A stretch of 64,000 nt of DNA from Sulfuriroseicoccus oceanibius (GTDB taxonomy: Bacteria; Verrucomicrobiota; Verrucomicrobiia; Verrucomicrobiales; SLCJ01). How positions within the stretch are numbered: position 1 is the stretch's first letter; the number at the start of each line of letters is the position of its first letter. The notes under the pieces were generated by a model. It worked only from the letters and a program-made list of their open reading frames with translations. It had not been told where the DNA came from and ran no database searches. The position numbers and the translations under genes are program-made. The stretch is taken from positions 1,302,001 through 1,366,000 of the forward strand of contig NZ_CP066776.1 in assembly GCF_010681825.2 (NCBI RefSeq), given 5' to 3'. This document shows positions 37,184-46,147 of this stretch, one piece after another.

Positions 37184-37330
37184 CGAAGCAGGGGGGCGTT
37201 GGCTTGTGCGGATTTTTGAGAATTTGCGCACGGCATGGTGCGGATTTCTTGGTTCCCGCTGGTGATTCCATGCATTCGCCTGTGGTGGATTGACCCTTAT
37301 GGCTCGGGCAGGTTTGTTGGCCCCGAAATC

Positions 37331-38413
37331 ATGGTCAACATCGCAGACTCCCCCGGTGCTCAGAAGCTCGTCGACGACCCCTTTGGATCGCGCCCGTACC
37401 TAGTTTTTTGGGAGGTGACCCGAGCCTGTGCGTTAGCTTGCAAGCATTGCCGGGCGGTGGCTCAGCCGAAGCGTCATCCGGACGAACTGACGAGCGAGGA
37501 GGCCGAGCGATTGGTCGATCAGTTGGCTGAACTGTCACCTCCGATGTTGATTCTGACCGGCGGCGACCCGCTGATGCGACTGGATGTGCTGCAGATTGCC
37601 CAGCGTGCCGACGAGCGGGGAATGCGAGTGGGGCTGAGTCCCGCAGCGACCGCCCGGTTGAGCAACTATGACTTTGATGTGATCCGTCAGGCCGGCGTGT
37701 CGAGCATGTCGCTCAGCCTGGATGGAGCCACTCGGGAGACCCATGATGCATTCCGCGGCGTGAAGGGAACCTTTGACCGCACGATCGATGCCGTTCACCG
37801 AGCCAAGGCGGCGGGATTGTCGGTGCAGATCAATACAACGCTGACAGCGCACAACTTGGATGAGTTCGATGCCTTCCGTGATCTGATGTTCGAGCTTGAG
37901 CCGTCGATGTGGAGTGTGTTCATCCTGGTGCCGACCGGACGTGCGGGCGTGGTGGACATGCCGTCTGCGGATGCATTGGAGAGTGTGTTCGAGCGGATGG
38001 CGGACTTGGTGGGCAAGGCACCGTTTGGGATCAAGACCACCGAGGGGCATCACTTCCGGCGCGTGCTGGCGCAGCGCGGACATGGCGGCCAGCGAGGGCG
38101 TCAGGGGATGCGCACCCCGCTGGGGATCCGCGACGGGCGTGGCGTGATGTTCATTTCCCACACCGGTGTGGTGAGCCCGAGCGGCTTCCTGCCGGCGGAC
38201 TGCGGCAATGTGCGCGACGTGCACCCGGCGGAGGTTTACCGCGAGCACCCGCTTTTTGTGTCGCTGCGGGACTCCGACGCATTGGGCGGCAAGTGTGGCC
38301 GCTGTGAGTTTAGAACGATTTGTGGCGGGTCGCGTGCCCGTGCCTACGGGGTGACAGGCGACATGTTTGCCGCCGAGCCAGCCTGCTCCTATCAACCAAA
38401 ATCTACGAGATAA
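37331..38413 (+). CDS. Radical SAM/SPASM protein of the TIGR04053 type (AhbD-like)
   Basis: 360 residues from the ATG at 37331. The radical SAM cluster motif is C-A-L-A-C-K-H-C in an N-terminal E-V-T-R-A-C context, with G-G-D-P-L-M as the SAM-contacting motif. A C-terminal SPASM-type auxiliary cluster is seen in C-G-R-C-E-F-R-T-I-C-G-G-S-R-A-R-A-Y. The sequence agrees with the TIGR04053 group, related to the Fe-coproporphyrin decarboxylase AhbD. The AhbC-like gene follows 4 bp later. Together they suggest the last steps of siroheme-dependent heme synthesis (inference). Confidence 0.82.
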   Translation: MVNIADSPGAQKLVDDPFGSRPYLVFWEVTRACALACKHCRAVAQPKRHPDELTSEEAERLVDQLAELSPPMLILTGGDPLMRLDVLQIAQRADERGMRVGLSPAATARLSNYDFDVIRQAGVSSMSLSLDGATRETHDAFRGVKGTFDRTIDAVHRAKAAGLSVQINTTLTAHNLDEFDAFRDLMFELEPSMWSVFILVPTGRAGVVDMPSADALESVFERMADLVGKAPFGIKTTEGHHFRRVLAQRGHGGQRGRQGMRTPLGIRDGRGVMFISHTGVVSPSGFLPADCGNVRDVHPAEVYREHPLFVSLRDSDALGGKCGRCEFRTICGGSRARAYGVTGDMFAAEPACSYQPKSTR

Positions 38414-38417
38414 TCCG

Positions 38418-39626
38418 ATGATCAATCTAACCCGACTCTGGACCGGAACCCAGCAACCCGCCGATGGATTGCGCTACGGGCACGGCAACGCGGCTGTGAA
38501 GACCGCACGCACCCGCCGCCCGATTGTGGTGTGGAATATTACCCGTACCTGCAACCTGCAGTGCATTCATTGCTACTCGGACTCGGCTGGTAAGCGTTAC
38601 CCTGGCGAGCTCGACTGGGATCAGATGAAGGCGGTGGTCGATGATCTCGCCGCTTACGAGGTGCCGTCGCTGCTTTTCTCGGGCGGTGAACCGATGATTC
38701 ACCCGCATTTCTTCGACTTGGTGGATTACGCCACGGAGAAGGGGCTGAAGCTGACGATCTCGACCAACGGAACGTTGATCACGCCAGAAAAGGCGGCGCG
38801 GCTCAAAGAAGCCAATGTGGCGTATGTCGGGATTTCCCTAGACGGCATTGGTGAGATCCACGATCACTTCCGCGGTAAGAAGGGTGCATTTGATCGCGCG
38901 GTGCAGGGGTTCAAGTACTGCCATGAGGTGGGACAGAAGACCGGCCTGCGTCTGACCCTGACGCGTCACAACGTGGAGAACATCGAGCGCATTCTCGACT
39001 TCATCGAGGACGAGGAGATCCAGCGTGTGTGCTTCTATCACTTGGTCCCAGCCGGCCGCGGATGTGAGCTGCAGGTGCTGGGCGAAAAAGAAGCTCGCGG
39101 CGCAATCGATACGCTGATCTCCCGGGTGGAAAAATGGAATGCCCAAGGGCTGACCCGCGAACTACTCACCGTGACCCAACCCGCCGACGGTGCGTATTTG
39201 CTGACTCGCATGGAGCGCGAAAACCACCCGAACTTGGAGCAGGCCCGCGAGTTGCTCGGGTGGAACGGTGGCGGAGCGAATAGCTCGGGACGAGGCATCG
39301 CCAACATCGATACCCAGGGTAACGTGCACCCGGATCAGTTTTGGCAGGACGTCCAGCTCGGAAACGTGAAGCAGGTGCCGTTTTCCAAAATCTGGGAAGG
39401 TCAGCACGAGCCAAGCGCCGCGCAGTTGGAGGAGATCCGCTCGATCGGCCTGCTCAGTGCGGAGGAGCGCCAGGCCAAGCTGGAAGGGCCATGTGGCACC
39501 TGCCGCTGGTTCAAGGTGTGCGGCGGTGGATTTCGCACCCGATCCGCATTTGCCAATGGGCATCTCTGGGGCAGCGATCCGGGGTGCTACCTGTCTGCAG
39601 AAGAGACCAGCGCTGTGTGCGTATAG
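38418..39626 (+). CDS. ahbC: AhbC-like radical SAM protein (12,18-didecarboxysiroheme deacetylase type)
   Basis: 402 residues from the ATG at 38418, 4 bp after the preceding gene. The N-terminus M-I-N-L-T-R-L-W-T-G and the D-G-L-R-Y-G motif are typical of AhbC/NirJ proteins. The radical SAM motif is C-N-L-Q-C-I-H-C-Y, with G-G-E-P as the SAM contact. The C-terminal region has N-G-G-G-A-N-S-S-G-R-G-I, G-N-V-H-P-D-Q-F-W and the auxiliary cluster C-G-T-C-R-W-F-K-V-C-G-G. AhbC removes acetate side chains from didecarboxysiroheme on the way to Fe-coproporphyrin III. NirJ of heme d1 synthesis is the close alternative. Confidence 0.8.
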   Translation: MINLTRLWTGTQQPADGLRYGHGNAAVKTARTRRPIVVWNITRTCNLQCIHCYSDSAGKRYPGELDWDQMKAVVDDLAAYEVPSLLFSGGEPMIHPHFFDLVDYATEKGLKLTISTNGTLITPEKAARLKEANVAYVGISLDGIGEIHDHFRGKKGAFDRAVQGFKYCHEVGQKTGLRLTLTRHNVENIERILDFIEDEEIQRVCFYHLVPAGRGCELQVLGEKEARGAIDTLISRVEKWNAQGLTRELLTVTQPADGAYLLTRMERENHPNLEQARELLGWNGGGANSSGRGIANIDTQGNVHPDQFWQDVQLGNVKQVPFSKIWEGQHEPSAAQLEEIRSIGLLSAEERQAKLEGPCGTCRWFKVCGGGFRTRSAFANGHLWGSDPGCYLSAEETSAVCV

Positions 39627-43181: not shown

Positions 43182-43757
43182 TCACTTTTTGATCTTAATC
43201 ATCACCTCATTGCGGCGTTTGGCGGGCAATGTCATCGGTGGGTCGTAGCTGGCTTTTTCCATCGTGCCGATCACCTCAAGCTTCTGCTTCTCAATCCACT
43301 CCATCAGAAGCTTCTGCGCTTGTTCTTCCTTGGCCCTCGAGCGGATACCGCTGAAGCGATAGACAGCGTAGCGCGCCGCTTCGCGGGTGGTGATCTCGAT
43401 GTTCGGGTTGTTTGCCTTGGGGGCACCAGCTGCCGCGACATCGGCGGGAACCACAAAGCTCATGTGCTTGTCATCGCTTTCGTCGTCGATGATCACCGGA
43501 GTGGTCATCTCAATCTTCTGCTCCGCCTCGTTCTTACCGGAGATGTAGCGGAACAACTGCATGAACGCGCCGTTGTTCGAGTCCATCGGGGCCGAGGCGA
43601 CGACGATTTTCGGGTAGTCACGGATTTCGAATGCCCCATCGTTCTTCACCACCTTGTACTTCGGTGTTTCGTAATCGTCGCGGTCCGCCAGGGCGGCTGG
43701 AACCATGACAAGGATTCCAACGGTGGCGATTGCAGCAAGGGCTCGTCCTAGTTTCAT
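43182..43757 (-). CDS. Exported SOUL-family heme-binding protein
   Basis: 191 residues from the ATG at 43757, with a signal peptide (K-L-G-R-A-L-A-A-I-A-T-V-G-I-L-V, cleavage near A-L-A-D). The mature part is a SOUL domain: Y-K-V-V-K-N-D-G-A-F-E-I-R-D-Y-P at the start, I-E-M-T-T-P-V and a C-terminal Y-D-P-P-M-T-L-P. SOUL proteins bind heme or other tetrapyrroles. It follows the fasciclin gene on the same strand with a 96-bp gap and lies near a B12-type light-sensing regulator, which suggests a role in photo-oxidative stress (inference). Confidence 0.9.
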   Translation of the reverse strand: MKLGRALAAIATVGILVMVPAALADRDDYETPKYKVVKNDGAFEIRDYPKIVVASAPMDSNNGAFMQLFRYISGKNEAEQKIEMTTPVIIDDESDDKHMSFVVPADVAAAGAPKANNPNIEITTREAARYAVYRFSGIRSRAKEEQAQKLLMEWIEKQKLEVIGTMEKASYDPPMTLPAKRRNEVMIKIKK

Positions 43758-43853
43758 GGCAGTTATCAGGTGAAAATGTGATCGACGGGAGGTTGCATTC
43801 ATGTGGCGAAATTCGCCCCCCGCCGATCCTCAACACGGAGTCAGTCGGCTGGG

Positions 43854-44357
43854 TTACGACTTAGGAAGGATTACGGTGTCGATGACGTGAATGACGCCAT
43901 TGCTTCCTACGATATCGGTTTTGATGACTTTCGCGCCATCGACAGTGACCGTGCCGTCGGACACTTGGATGTCCACGCTGGCGCCGTTAAGGGTTTTGAC
44001 CTTACCTGGAGATACGTCCGCAGCCATGACTTTGGCTCCGATGGCGTGCAAGGTGAGTATGGCCTGAAGCTTTTCCTTGTTTTCAGGCTTCAGCAATTCC
44101 TCCACGGTCCCCTCCGGAAGCTTGGCGAAGGCGTCATTGGTTGGAGCGAAGATGGTAAATGGACCTTCACCGCTGAGAGTTTCTGCGAGTCCTGCTGCTT
44201 TCACGGCGGCCACAAGGGTGGAGAAGTCTTCGTTGGATGCGGCAATCTCGACGACGGTTTGCTCTGCCGCCTTCTCGTGGTTGTCGGCGAACACGGTCGG
44301 TGCGGTTGCTAGTGAGCCTGCAATGGTCAGCGTGGTAACGATGGTTGGTAGTTTCAT
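43854..44357 (-). CDS. Exported fasciclin-domain (FAS1) protein
   Basis: 167 residues from the ATG at 44357, with a signal peptide ending near V-F-A-D. A single FAS1 domain fills the rest: [13 protein letters not shown], then the H1 motif [11 protein letters not shown] and the H2 region N-G-V-I-H-V-I-D. Secreted single-FAS1 proteins of this kind act in adhesion or stress. It is divergently transcribed from the MerR-B12 regulator across a 170-bp region with repeated TGTCTA motifs, so it is a likely direct target. Confidence 0.92.
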
Positions 44358-44381
44358 GGGTGGGTGTTTTTTAAGGGTTGG

Positions 44382-44430
44382 TAGACACACTAAACGTTGA
44401 ACAATGTTCGGCGTGTCTAGGTTGTGTCTA
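44382..44430. promoter_or_regulatory. Candidate operator with 11-bp-spaced GTGTCTA repeats
   Basis: The divergent promoter region between the fasciclin gene and the MerR-B12 regulator holds GTGTCTA at 44413-44419 and again at 44424-44430, exactly 11 bp apart in direct orientation. An inverted copy TAGACAC is at 44382-44388 and a further TTGTCTA lies at 44498-44504. Tandem 11-bp direct repeats are the known layout of CarH operators, so autoregulation and control of the fasciclin gene are plausible. The motif itself is not verified. Confidence 0.45.
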
Positions 44431-44527
44431 TCGTGAGTGGTGATTCTTGTCAAAGAAAAGTCGAGGTTTTTGGTTCAGTGGAGAGCTGGGTTGAACTTTG
44501 TCTATCTTTCGTCTAAGAGTTTGTTCT

Positions 44528-45463
44528 ATGGCGAACTCCCAGTATCCGATGAAGTATGTGACGCAGGTCACGGGGCTCAGTCCCCATGTGCTCAGGGTTT
44601 GGGAGCGGCGTTATGGAGCGGTGAAACCGCAGCGGACCGAGAGCAACCGTCGGATTTATGACGAAGCAGACGTGGCAAGGCTGGCTTTGCTCGTGAAGTT
44701 GACCAAGGCCGGGCATTCGATCCGCCACATTGCCAATATCCCGATAGAGGGCTTGGAGAGCATGATCCGTGGGTTGGAGAGCGATCATGCGAAGGTGGCC
44801 AGCCTGCCGCAGGATCCGGAGCTGAAGCAGAGTCTTTTGGACAAGGCGTGGCGCCATGTGATCGCATTACAGCCGGCAGAGCTTCAGCAGGTGCTCGACG
44901 CTGCGGTGGTCGAGCTTGGGGCGTCTGGGCTGATCGAGAAGCTGCTGGCGCCCTTGATTGGGCGGATCGGCGAGGGATGGGAGAATGGCGACCTGTCCGT
45001 AGCGGAGGAACATGCGGCGACCGCGGTGATTCGTGATGCCTTGTTTCGGGCGAGTATTCCGTATTCGGGGGAGGTTGGGGCGCCACGAATGGTGGTGGCG
45101 ACCCCGAGCGGCCAGCTTCATGAGCTGGGAGCTGCGATGGTCTTTGCGACCGCACGGCGCAAGGGCTGGGATGTCACCTACCTGGGATCATCGTTGCCGG
45201 CTGAGGAAATCGTGCGTGCGGTGGTTCGTTCCGAAGCCATTGCCGTGGCGTTGAGTGTGGTTTATCCATCGGATGACCCAAGGTTGGGCGAAGAGTTGCG
45301 GCGTCTGCGCAGTCTATTACCGAGTGATGTGACCATCCTAATCGGTGGGCGGGCTGCGTTTGCCTATCGGAATGAGATTGGGGAAATCAAGGCGTCTCTG
45401 ATGACCGACCTCCAAGGGTTGAAACGGAAGCTGGATGTGTTGCGGGAGAACCGCCAGCGTTAG
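44528..45463 (+). CDS. MerR-family regulator with B12-binding domain, CarH/LitR-like photoreceptor
   Basis: 311 residues from the ATG at 44528. The N-terminal MerR winged helix (Y-V-T-Q-V-T-G-L-S-P-H-V-L-R-V-W-E-R-R-Y) is followed by a cobalamin-cap helical bundle (about 100-175) and a B12-binding Rossmann domain (about 185-305). The residues that make CarH an adenosylcobalamin light sensor are all present: Trp151 then Glu161-His162 in a W-x9-E-H arrangement, and the lower ligand His198 in G-Q-L-H-E-L-G. In CarH, dark tetramers bind DNA and light releases them. Neighbouring fasciclin and SOUL genes fit a photo-oxidative stress regulon. Confidence 0.9.
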   Translation: MANSQYPMKYVTQVTGLSPHVLRVWERRYGAVKPQRTESNRRIYDEADVARLALLVKLTKAGHSIRHIANIPIEGLESMIRGLESDHAKVASLPQDPELKQSLLDKAWRHVIALQPAELQQVLDAAVVELGASGLIEKLLAPLIGRIGEGWENGDLSVAEEHAATAVIRDALFRASIPYSGEVGAPRMVVATPSGQLHELGAAMVFATARRKGWDVTYLGSSLPAEEIVRAVVRSEAIAVALSVVYPSDDPRLGEELRRLRSLLPSDVTILIGGRAAFAYRNEIGEIKASLMTDLQGLKRKLDVLRENRQR

Positions 45464-45497
45464 CACCCGTCATTTGGGGGCTGGAAGGAAACAAAAA

Positions 45498-45538
45498 ACG
45501 GCCGCCCCTCGGATCGAAGGACGGCCGTCAGTGGAAGC
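45498..45538 (-). terminator. Terminator after the UGA-containing gene
   Basis: A 7-bp GC-rich stem (45498-45504 with 45532-45538), extended by weaker inner pairing and followed on the minus strand by six T. It lies 10 bp past the final stop codon at 45548, which supports the reading frame running all the way to that stop. Confidence 0.85.
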
Positions 45539-45547
45539 GGTTAGGCG

Positions 45548-46147
45548 CTAGTTGGTGAAGGGGGAGCCTTCGACCAGCGTGGCTTCTGTAATCTTCAGTT
45601 TGAATGGCTTCAGTGCCTCGGTGACCGCGGCTTCATCGTAGCCGTCTTTGTCTGCCAAGTGGAGTTTGATGCCGTTGTTGACGTAGGCACCGGTGATGCC
45701 ATCGAGCTTTTCCAAGGCCACACGGACCTTGTCGTTGGTTTCAGCTCATCCAGTGCCTGCGACCTTGAGGTGGTAGGTCGCAGCAGGTTCCGTGGCTTGC
45801 TCCGCGGTGAACGAGGTGATCTTGAGCCCTTTTTCGGTGAGGGCTTTTTTGACCGTAGCCTCTTCCAGAGTGGCGCCGTCGTTCATGACGAGCGTGGCGC
45901 GGAGGCCGGAAAGGAGGATCTTATTCACTCCTTCTTGCGTCTTGAGAGCCGAACTGGCCCTCTTGGCAATGCCTCATCCACCGCCGCTGAGGTGGACCAC
46001 ATACGTGGAGATGGTTTCTGCCGCTTCAGCTTGCGCGGCTACCGGCTGGTCGGCTCCGGTCTCGGCCTTGGCGTGGTTGTCCGCGTGGAGCGGAAGCACG
46101 GCCAACCCGAGTCCAGCGATCGCTGTGGGTAGGATATGTTTTTTCAT
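45548..46147 (-). CDS. Probable periplasmic selenoprotein: two HMA-like domains with in-frame UGA (Sec58, Sec134)
   Basis: One frame of 200 codons from the ATG at 46147 to the TAG at 45548-45550, interrupted only by TGA at 45974-45976 and 45746-45748. A signal peptide (residues 1-22) is followed by two tandem repeats of a beta-alpha-beta-beta-alpha-beta domain resembling heavy-metal-associated domains: T-Y-V-V-H-L-S-G-G-G-U-G and T-Y-H-L-K-V-A-G-T-G-U-A. Each UGA falls where the first metal-binding Cys of GMxC would be. The protein has no Cys. A 7-bp, 5-nt-loop hairpin follows each UGA at SECIS distance. Alternatives are a doubly mutated pseudogene or two short fragments (45974-46147 and 45746-45928). 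sel genes are not in the window. Confidence 0.78.
45713..45731 (-). promoter_or_regulatory. SECIS-like hairpin after the second UGA
   Basis: On the minus strand CAAGGTC pairs with GGCCTTG (7 bp including one G-U) around the loop CGTGT. The stem starts 14 nt after the UGA at 45746-45748. The loop has G at position 2 and U at position 3, as does the hairpin after the first UGA. Confidence 0.6.
45944..45962 (-). promoter_or_regulatory. SECIS-like hairpin after the first UGA
   Basis: On the minus strand GAGGGCC pairs with GGCTCTC (7 bp including one G-U) around the loop AGTTC. The stem starts 11 nt after the UGA at 45974-45976, the same spacing as the E. coli fdhF element. The loop has G at position 2 and U at position 3. 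Confidence 0.62.

Follow-up and report, generated by a model that had tools for sequence, protein, structure and literature searches.

The gene and its reading frame

The gene on the minus strand at 45548..46147 of the window (the whole stretch of 64,000 nucleotides analysed here) very probably encodes an exported selenoprotein with an HMA-like (heavy-metal-associated) identity. Both of its in-frame UGA codons are almost certainly decoded as Sec, a reading for which comparative genomics gives support as strong as sequence allows. As both UGAs are kept in about 50 related bacterial genomes, the gene appears to represent a genuine selenoprotein family. The frame runs from ATG to TAG over 199 codons plus the TAG and has TGA codons at positions 58 and 134 as its sole interruptions, while the 199-residue translation of the window gene is without any Cys. 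The initial annotation had described a single minus-strand frame leading from a signal peptide to a TAG and a terminator, with these two TGA codons and a Cys-free product, and translation and folding confirmed this description. The elements of the frame are the following:

45548..46147, minus strand: CDS of the putative double-Sec protein, both TGA codons (58 and 134) taken as Sec (translation; 50 other family sequences with both TGAs)
46082..46147, minus strand: predicted signal peptide MKKHILPTAIAGLGLAVLPLHA, read from the sequence
45974..45976, minus strand: UGA codon 58 (Sec-1), TGA in 51/51 sequences
45746..45748, minus strand: UGA codon 134 (Sec-2), TGA in 51/51 sequences
45548-45550, minus strand: TAG stop of the CDS (translation)
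45490..45529, minus strand: terminator-like hairpin and T run directly 3' of the gene (-30.0 kcal/mol for a 68-nt stretch)

In some homologues the signal peptide is replaced by a lipoprotein-type end, with a lipobox-like Cys in L045, L047, L053, L060 and L063.

Family members and selection

A single-sequence search led to two relatives with 43-45% identity, Roseibacillus persicicus KCTC 12988 and Verrucomicrobiota bacterium JB023, each with two TGAs. The first single-sequence scan of genome contigs gave no confirmed relatives; a profile scan of genome contigs gave three, all of them Verrucomicrobiota. With a three-row profile, 50 carriers were detected among 387 genomes of the order, and the full-length matches all had exactly two TGAs. 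The resulting alignment comprises 51 sequences, the one of the window included, with a pairwise identity of 20-97%. TGA is present at both columns in every one of them, and only four Gly columns (G55, G57, G81 and G131) are equally invariant. Concerning the rest of the phylum, a profile search returned only weak further matches to HMA domains of ATPases and to small HMA proteins, and thus the double-Sec family appears, within the genomes searched, to be confined to Verrucomicrobiales.

Cys was not found at either Sec position in the 51 sequences of the double-Sec family, and it was seen at the equivalent position in more distant HMA relatives. A search for homologues bearing Cys or Sec at codons 58 and 134, which had been proposed at the outset, is thereby answered with TGA at both codons throughout the family. 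For close pairs, the median dN/dS fell from 0.23 upstream of UGA-1, a segment made up largely of signal peptide and linker, to 0.11 in the segment between the two UGAs and 0.065 downstream of UGA-2. Purifying selection therefore persists past both UGAs, and the additional stops or frameshifts that the initial annotation had named as signs of decay were not detected in the homologues.

SECIS-like hairpins

Each UGA is followed by a short hairpin in the window:

45944..45962, minus strand: SECIS-like hairpin 1, GAGGGCC-AGTTC-GGCTCTC, 7 bp, loop AGUUC, 11 nt after UGA-1, -10.6 kcal/mol
45713..45731, minus strand: SECIS-like hairpin 2, CAAGGTC-CGTGT-GGCCTTG, 7 bp, loop CGUGU, 14 nt after UGA-2, -7.5 kcal/mol

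Sequence and folding bear out the two hairpins with 7-bp stems and 5-nt loops reported earlier at 11 and 14 nt past the UGAs, and in both G and U occupy loop positions 2 and 3. The published bSECIS model demands a stem of 4-16 bp, a loop of 3-9 nt with a G among its first two bases, an MFE of at most -7.5 and a distance of 16-37 nt from UGA to loop (PMC13188914). Both hairpins fit these constraints (7 bp, 5-nt loop, G at position 2, UGA-to-loop distances of 18 and 21 nt), hairpin 2 lying with its -7.5 exactly at the energy limit and hairpin 1 reaching -10.6.

The distance of the hairpins from the UGA is fixed in all family members, and their pairing is conserved beyond synonymous-codon expectation. 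Specifically, 6.27 of 7 pairs were observed at site 1 vs 4.23 +/- 0.13 in synonymous-codon shuffles, and 6.57 of 7 at site 2 vs 4.11 +/- 0.15; no shuffle approached the observed value at either site. The inner six pairs are complete in 39/51 sequences at site 1 and 42/47 at site 2, where 1.6 and 1.4 would be expected. Several compensatory pair types occur, the closing pair of site 2 being CG in 24 sequences, GC in 18, TA in 4 and AT in 1. Additionally, the second loop base is G in 51/51 (site 1) and 47/47 (site 2) sequences, followed by U in 50/51 and 44/47.

Sec machinery and its distribution

The genome of the window, a single Verrucomicrobiales contig of 3.5 Mb, contains all four components of the Sec machinery whose presence the initial annotation had left to be checked: tRNA-Sec with anticodon TCA (65.8 bits), selA (471.4 bits), selB (305.8 bits) and selD (368 bits), each scoring above its curated cut-off. 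The selD gene (G000:C1:1190029-1191233; also L002, L015) adjoins the tRNA-Sec gene and appears to be a selenoprotein gene itself, with an in-frame TGA in its N-terminal loop and a hairpin with G first in the loop about 33 nt downstream.

Across the order, selA was matched in 47/50 carrier genomes vs 71/337 non-carriers (Fisher p = 2e-24, a value that overstates independence because the genomes are related). The three carriers without a selA match have tRNA-Sec at 54-63 bits, so that every one of the 50 carrier genomes has selA or tRNA-Sec.

Domains and predicted fold

The following two domains were delimited in the protein:

45812..46009, minus strand: HMA-like domain 1, residues ~47-112, motif GGGU (AlphaFold beta-alpha-beta-beta-alpha-beta, pLDDT >90; Pfam HMA at 32.5 bits in homologue L017)
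45575..45784, minus strand: HMA-like domain 2, residues ~122-191, motif GTGU (AlphaFold; A2 profile matches to CopA (1p6t, 2rml), MerA, CopZ and MerP chains)

AlphaFold, run with a 45-row alignment, predicted two ferredoxin-like domains of the beta-alpha-beta-beta-alpha-beta type (mean pLDDT 90.7, pTM 0.81). Superposition of the single predicted domains on CopZ gave a TMt of 0.79 and an rmsd of 1.7, and a PDB sequence search with the A2 profile reached the CopA tandem domains at E 9e-9. Pfam PF00403 (HMA) was matched at E 0.01 or better by 19/45 members. The tandem HMA-like domains of the initial annotation are hence supported by the Pfam match of a homologue, near-matches in NCBIfam, the PDB matches and the predicted fold; the weak part is the window protein's own sequence, which scores 16.5 bits against PF00403, under the gathering cut-off of 24.8 that homologue L017 exceeds with 32.5 bits.

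In the model, each Sec is placed in the beta1-alpha1 loop, where HMA domains have the first Cys of the CxxC motif. The alignment and the Cys-bearing HMA relatives also support this position, which had been assigned to the UGAs from the window alone. The motif as such is absent, its first position being Sec and its second never Cys in 51/51 members.

Comparison with known systems

Sec in heavy-metal-handling proteins has precedents. The closest is NF041115 (UxxU_metal_bind), a metal-binding (seleno)protein given as putative mercuric reductase in Table 1 of PMC13188914, which shares with the double-Sec family an HMA-like domain with Sec at the metal-binding Cys and was weakly matched by 42/45 members (best E 4.5e-9). 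However, it is a 74-position single-domain UxxU model, whereas the double-Sec protein is exported and has two domains, each with one Sec and without a further Cys or Sec. The window protein reaches 23.2 bits with the NF041115 model vs a curated cut-off of 95, and its Sec is followed by a non-Sec residue at +3, so no UxxU is formed.

Sec forms of MerP, or putative mercuric transport protein, and of the cation-transporting ATPase E1-E2 (UxxC in the ATPase) have likewise been described (PMC2398784, PMC13188914); Sec MerP, reported from two sequences, was listed in the older GOS survey (PMC2398784). These are parts of transport systems with a single Sec, while the double-Sec protein stands alone, with two Sec and without mer neighbours. 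Against the MerP model TIGR02052 the window protein reaches 23.9 bits vs a curated cut-off of 92.55, and the context of a mer operon is absent. MerT_CopZ_Se (NF045683) is a further named selenoprotein with a CopZ-like part, but it is fused to a MerT-like membrane part and was matched by only two members (E ~0.06).

Concerning structures, the N-terminal tandem HMA domains of CopA (1p6t, 2rml) and CopZ (6ff2, 2qif) share the beta-alpha-beta-beta-alpha-beta domains, with single-domain rmsd values of 1.7-2.0 to CopZ. They are cytoplasmic and bear CxxC, whereas the double-Sec protein would be exported and has Sec without the second Cys. Although the single domains fit CopZ, the pair superposes poorly on the CopA tandem (rmsd 14-15), and the packing of the predicted domains therefore differs from that of CopA.

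The metal-handling Sec entries in Table 1 of PMC13188914 are NF041115, the cation-transporting ATPase (UxxC) and the mercuric transport protein, and a tandem double-Sec HMA protein is absent from this table of 119 families or subfamilies (2026). No model of NCBIfam release 20 accepts the window protein, and full-text literature searches on HMA-domain or Verrucomicrobiota selenoproteins returned nothing relevant. The earlier remark that the architecture is undescribed thus stands for the catalogue and libraries searched, within which the tandem, two-Sec HMA architecture is new; it does not extend to Sec in single HMA domains, already known from NF041115 (UxxU), the P-type ATPase and MerP. One family is thereby added to the approximately 119 catalogued for prokaryotic selenoproteins. 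It is unusual in that both Sec are obligate, most mature proteins are Cys-free and the family was not found in a Cys form, and it could therefore provide a clean test of the benefit of Sec over Cys in the chemistry of metals or of redox reactions. Genes of this type would tend to be truncated by standard annotation at their first UGA. Our results suggest that heavy-metal-associated selenoproteins are widespread yet overlooked in Verrucomicrobiales.

Gene neighbourhood

The window gene has the following neighbours:

44498-45463, plus strand: MerR/B12-binding regulator, CarH/LitR-like
43854-44453, minus strand: fasciclin-domain protein
43182-43802, minus strand: SOUL heme-binding protein

Farther away in the window, the ORF list places at 37235-39626 on the plus strand a pair of neighbouring radical-SAM-like genes and, after them, genes resembling those of acetate kinase and phosphotransacetylase.

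Clustering of the neighbours of 40-odd loci revealed no operon partner conserved across clades, and no metal pump, mer or cop operon as a conserved neighbour of these loci. Neighbours were clade-specific only, and by sequence reading they were named FAD oxidoreductase-like, bS21-like, peroxiredoxin-like, S41-peptidase-like and phosphatase-like. A search for a common upstream palindrome or regulator site found none. The sole metal-export-like neighbour seen is an ArsP-like permease with a His-rich loop (L074:3849-4868:-), divergent from a family member; being an isolated case of one member, it was not retained as a partner. A SOUL-like gene lies just upstream of member L086, and the SOUL protein was equally set aside, being isolated to two members (the window and L086).

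Proposed function and alternative readings

We propose that SelA, SelB, SelD and tRNA-Sec of the genome would read both UGAs as Sec, each UGA being specified by the SECIS hairpin that follows it. The mature protein would consist of a tight pair of HMA-like domains with the ferredoxin fold, one Sec in each, in which the second Cys of CxxC has been lost. As the likeliest role, the two selenolates would bind a soft metal (Cu+, Hg2+, Ag+ or a similar ion) on the extracytoplasmic side, each domain taking its own ion or both sharing a single one, in a scavenger or chaperone role like that of MerP or CopZ. The chances that the protein acts as such an extracytoplasmic soft-metal scavenger or chaperone are, in our estimate, about evenly balanced. 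That the second Cys and other evident ligands are missing makes metal binding of the classical HMA kind less certain, and the conserved gene neighbourhood lends a metal role no support. More tentatively, the two Sec might share a single soft metal ion between them (Se-M-Se) or be linked by a reversible diselenide across the domains, in a bis-selenolate metallochaperone or redox switch that would be one of several Sec-HMA families by which Verrucomicrobiales remodelled extracytoplasmic metal handling. If true, this would be a Cys-free protein whose entire activity rests on a selenolate pair.

The strongest alternative, though rather unlikely, is that the same selenoprotein has a redox function, as an exported thiol/diselenide oxidoreductase or in peroxide scavenging by a diselenide or a single Sec, with the HMA fold as a scaffold. 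A redox role is assumed for many selenoproteins (PMC13188914), and the absence of the second CxxC ligand from both domains (Cys there in 0/51 members) would agree with such a role. The motif of domain 2 is often UxxT, a form also given for GPX-like and OsmC-like selenoproteins (PMC13188914), and a peroxiredoxin-like gene adjoins some members. However, metal binding is the known role of the HMA fold, the closest models (NF041115, MerP and CopZ) are metal binders, and no reductase partner is conserved nearby. A function other than metal binding or selenol redox is less likely still.

Far weaker are the readings that deny Sec altogether. If the code were reassigned or a suppressor tRNA present, UGA could be decoded as Trp or some other standard residue, and this would agree with a frame that is open under a TGA-sense code. 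Such decoding is very improbable, as had been judged initially, in view of the tRNA-Sec(UCA), the hairpins at fixed distance and the distribution that tracks selA; moreover, the family members L058 and L071 appear to use TGA as a terminator, which argues against TGA being a plain sense codon there. A pseudogene or a sequencing error, with an HMA-like gene hit by two nonsense mutations, could be suspected from two in-frame stops within one window gene and retains next to no probability given both TGAs in 51/51 sequences, a dN/dS of 0.065 past UGA-2, the conserved hairpins and the linkage with selA.

Cys- and Sec-type relatives in the order

Apart from the double-Sec family with its preferred Sec reading, other HMA proteins of the order were reached through weak matches. 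Two exported tandem-HMA proteins (L107:270-881:+ and L108:724-1311:-) occur in genomes also carrying the double-Sec family. Like that family they have a signal peptide and two HMA domains, but each of their domains bears GMTCxxC, their N-terminal part includes a Cys-rich stretch, and their similarity to the family is low. They represent Cys counterparts of the architecture and may do a separate job.

A second and wider group consists of exported single-HMA proteins of Verrucomicrobiales, apparently selenoproteins, with the motifs GVTU[AG]GC or GL.UA[AGS]GC and SECIS-like hairpins of their own (L113, L114, L116-L125, L127-L129, L131 and L132, e.g., L117:1480-1827:-); none of those tested passed an NCBIfam cut-off. 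Among the matches listed, single-HMA Sec forms (GVTUAGC, GLVUAGGC) were counted in at least 75 genomes, 70 of them with selA, vs at least 52 genomes, 1 with selA, for Cys-only forms (e.g., GMVCAGC), all by automatic stop counts in which a few TGAs (e.g., G434 and G552, another family) may be terminators. Many of the Sec forms have a hairpin of the same type. This split between Sec and Cys, tracking selA, supports UGA at the HMA Cys position. Finally, in L098 (G252:C234) a Cys-form HMA domain is fused behind a membrane permease-like protein, and the match extends into a TGA, probably its stop; from its sequence, the protein may be a metal exporter that bears an HMA tail.
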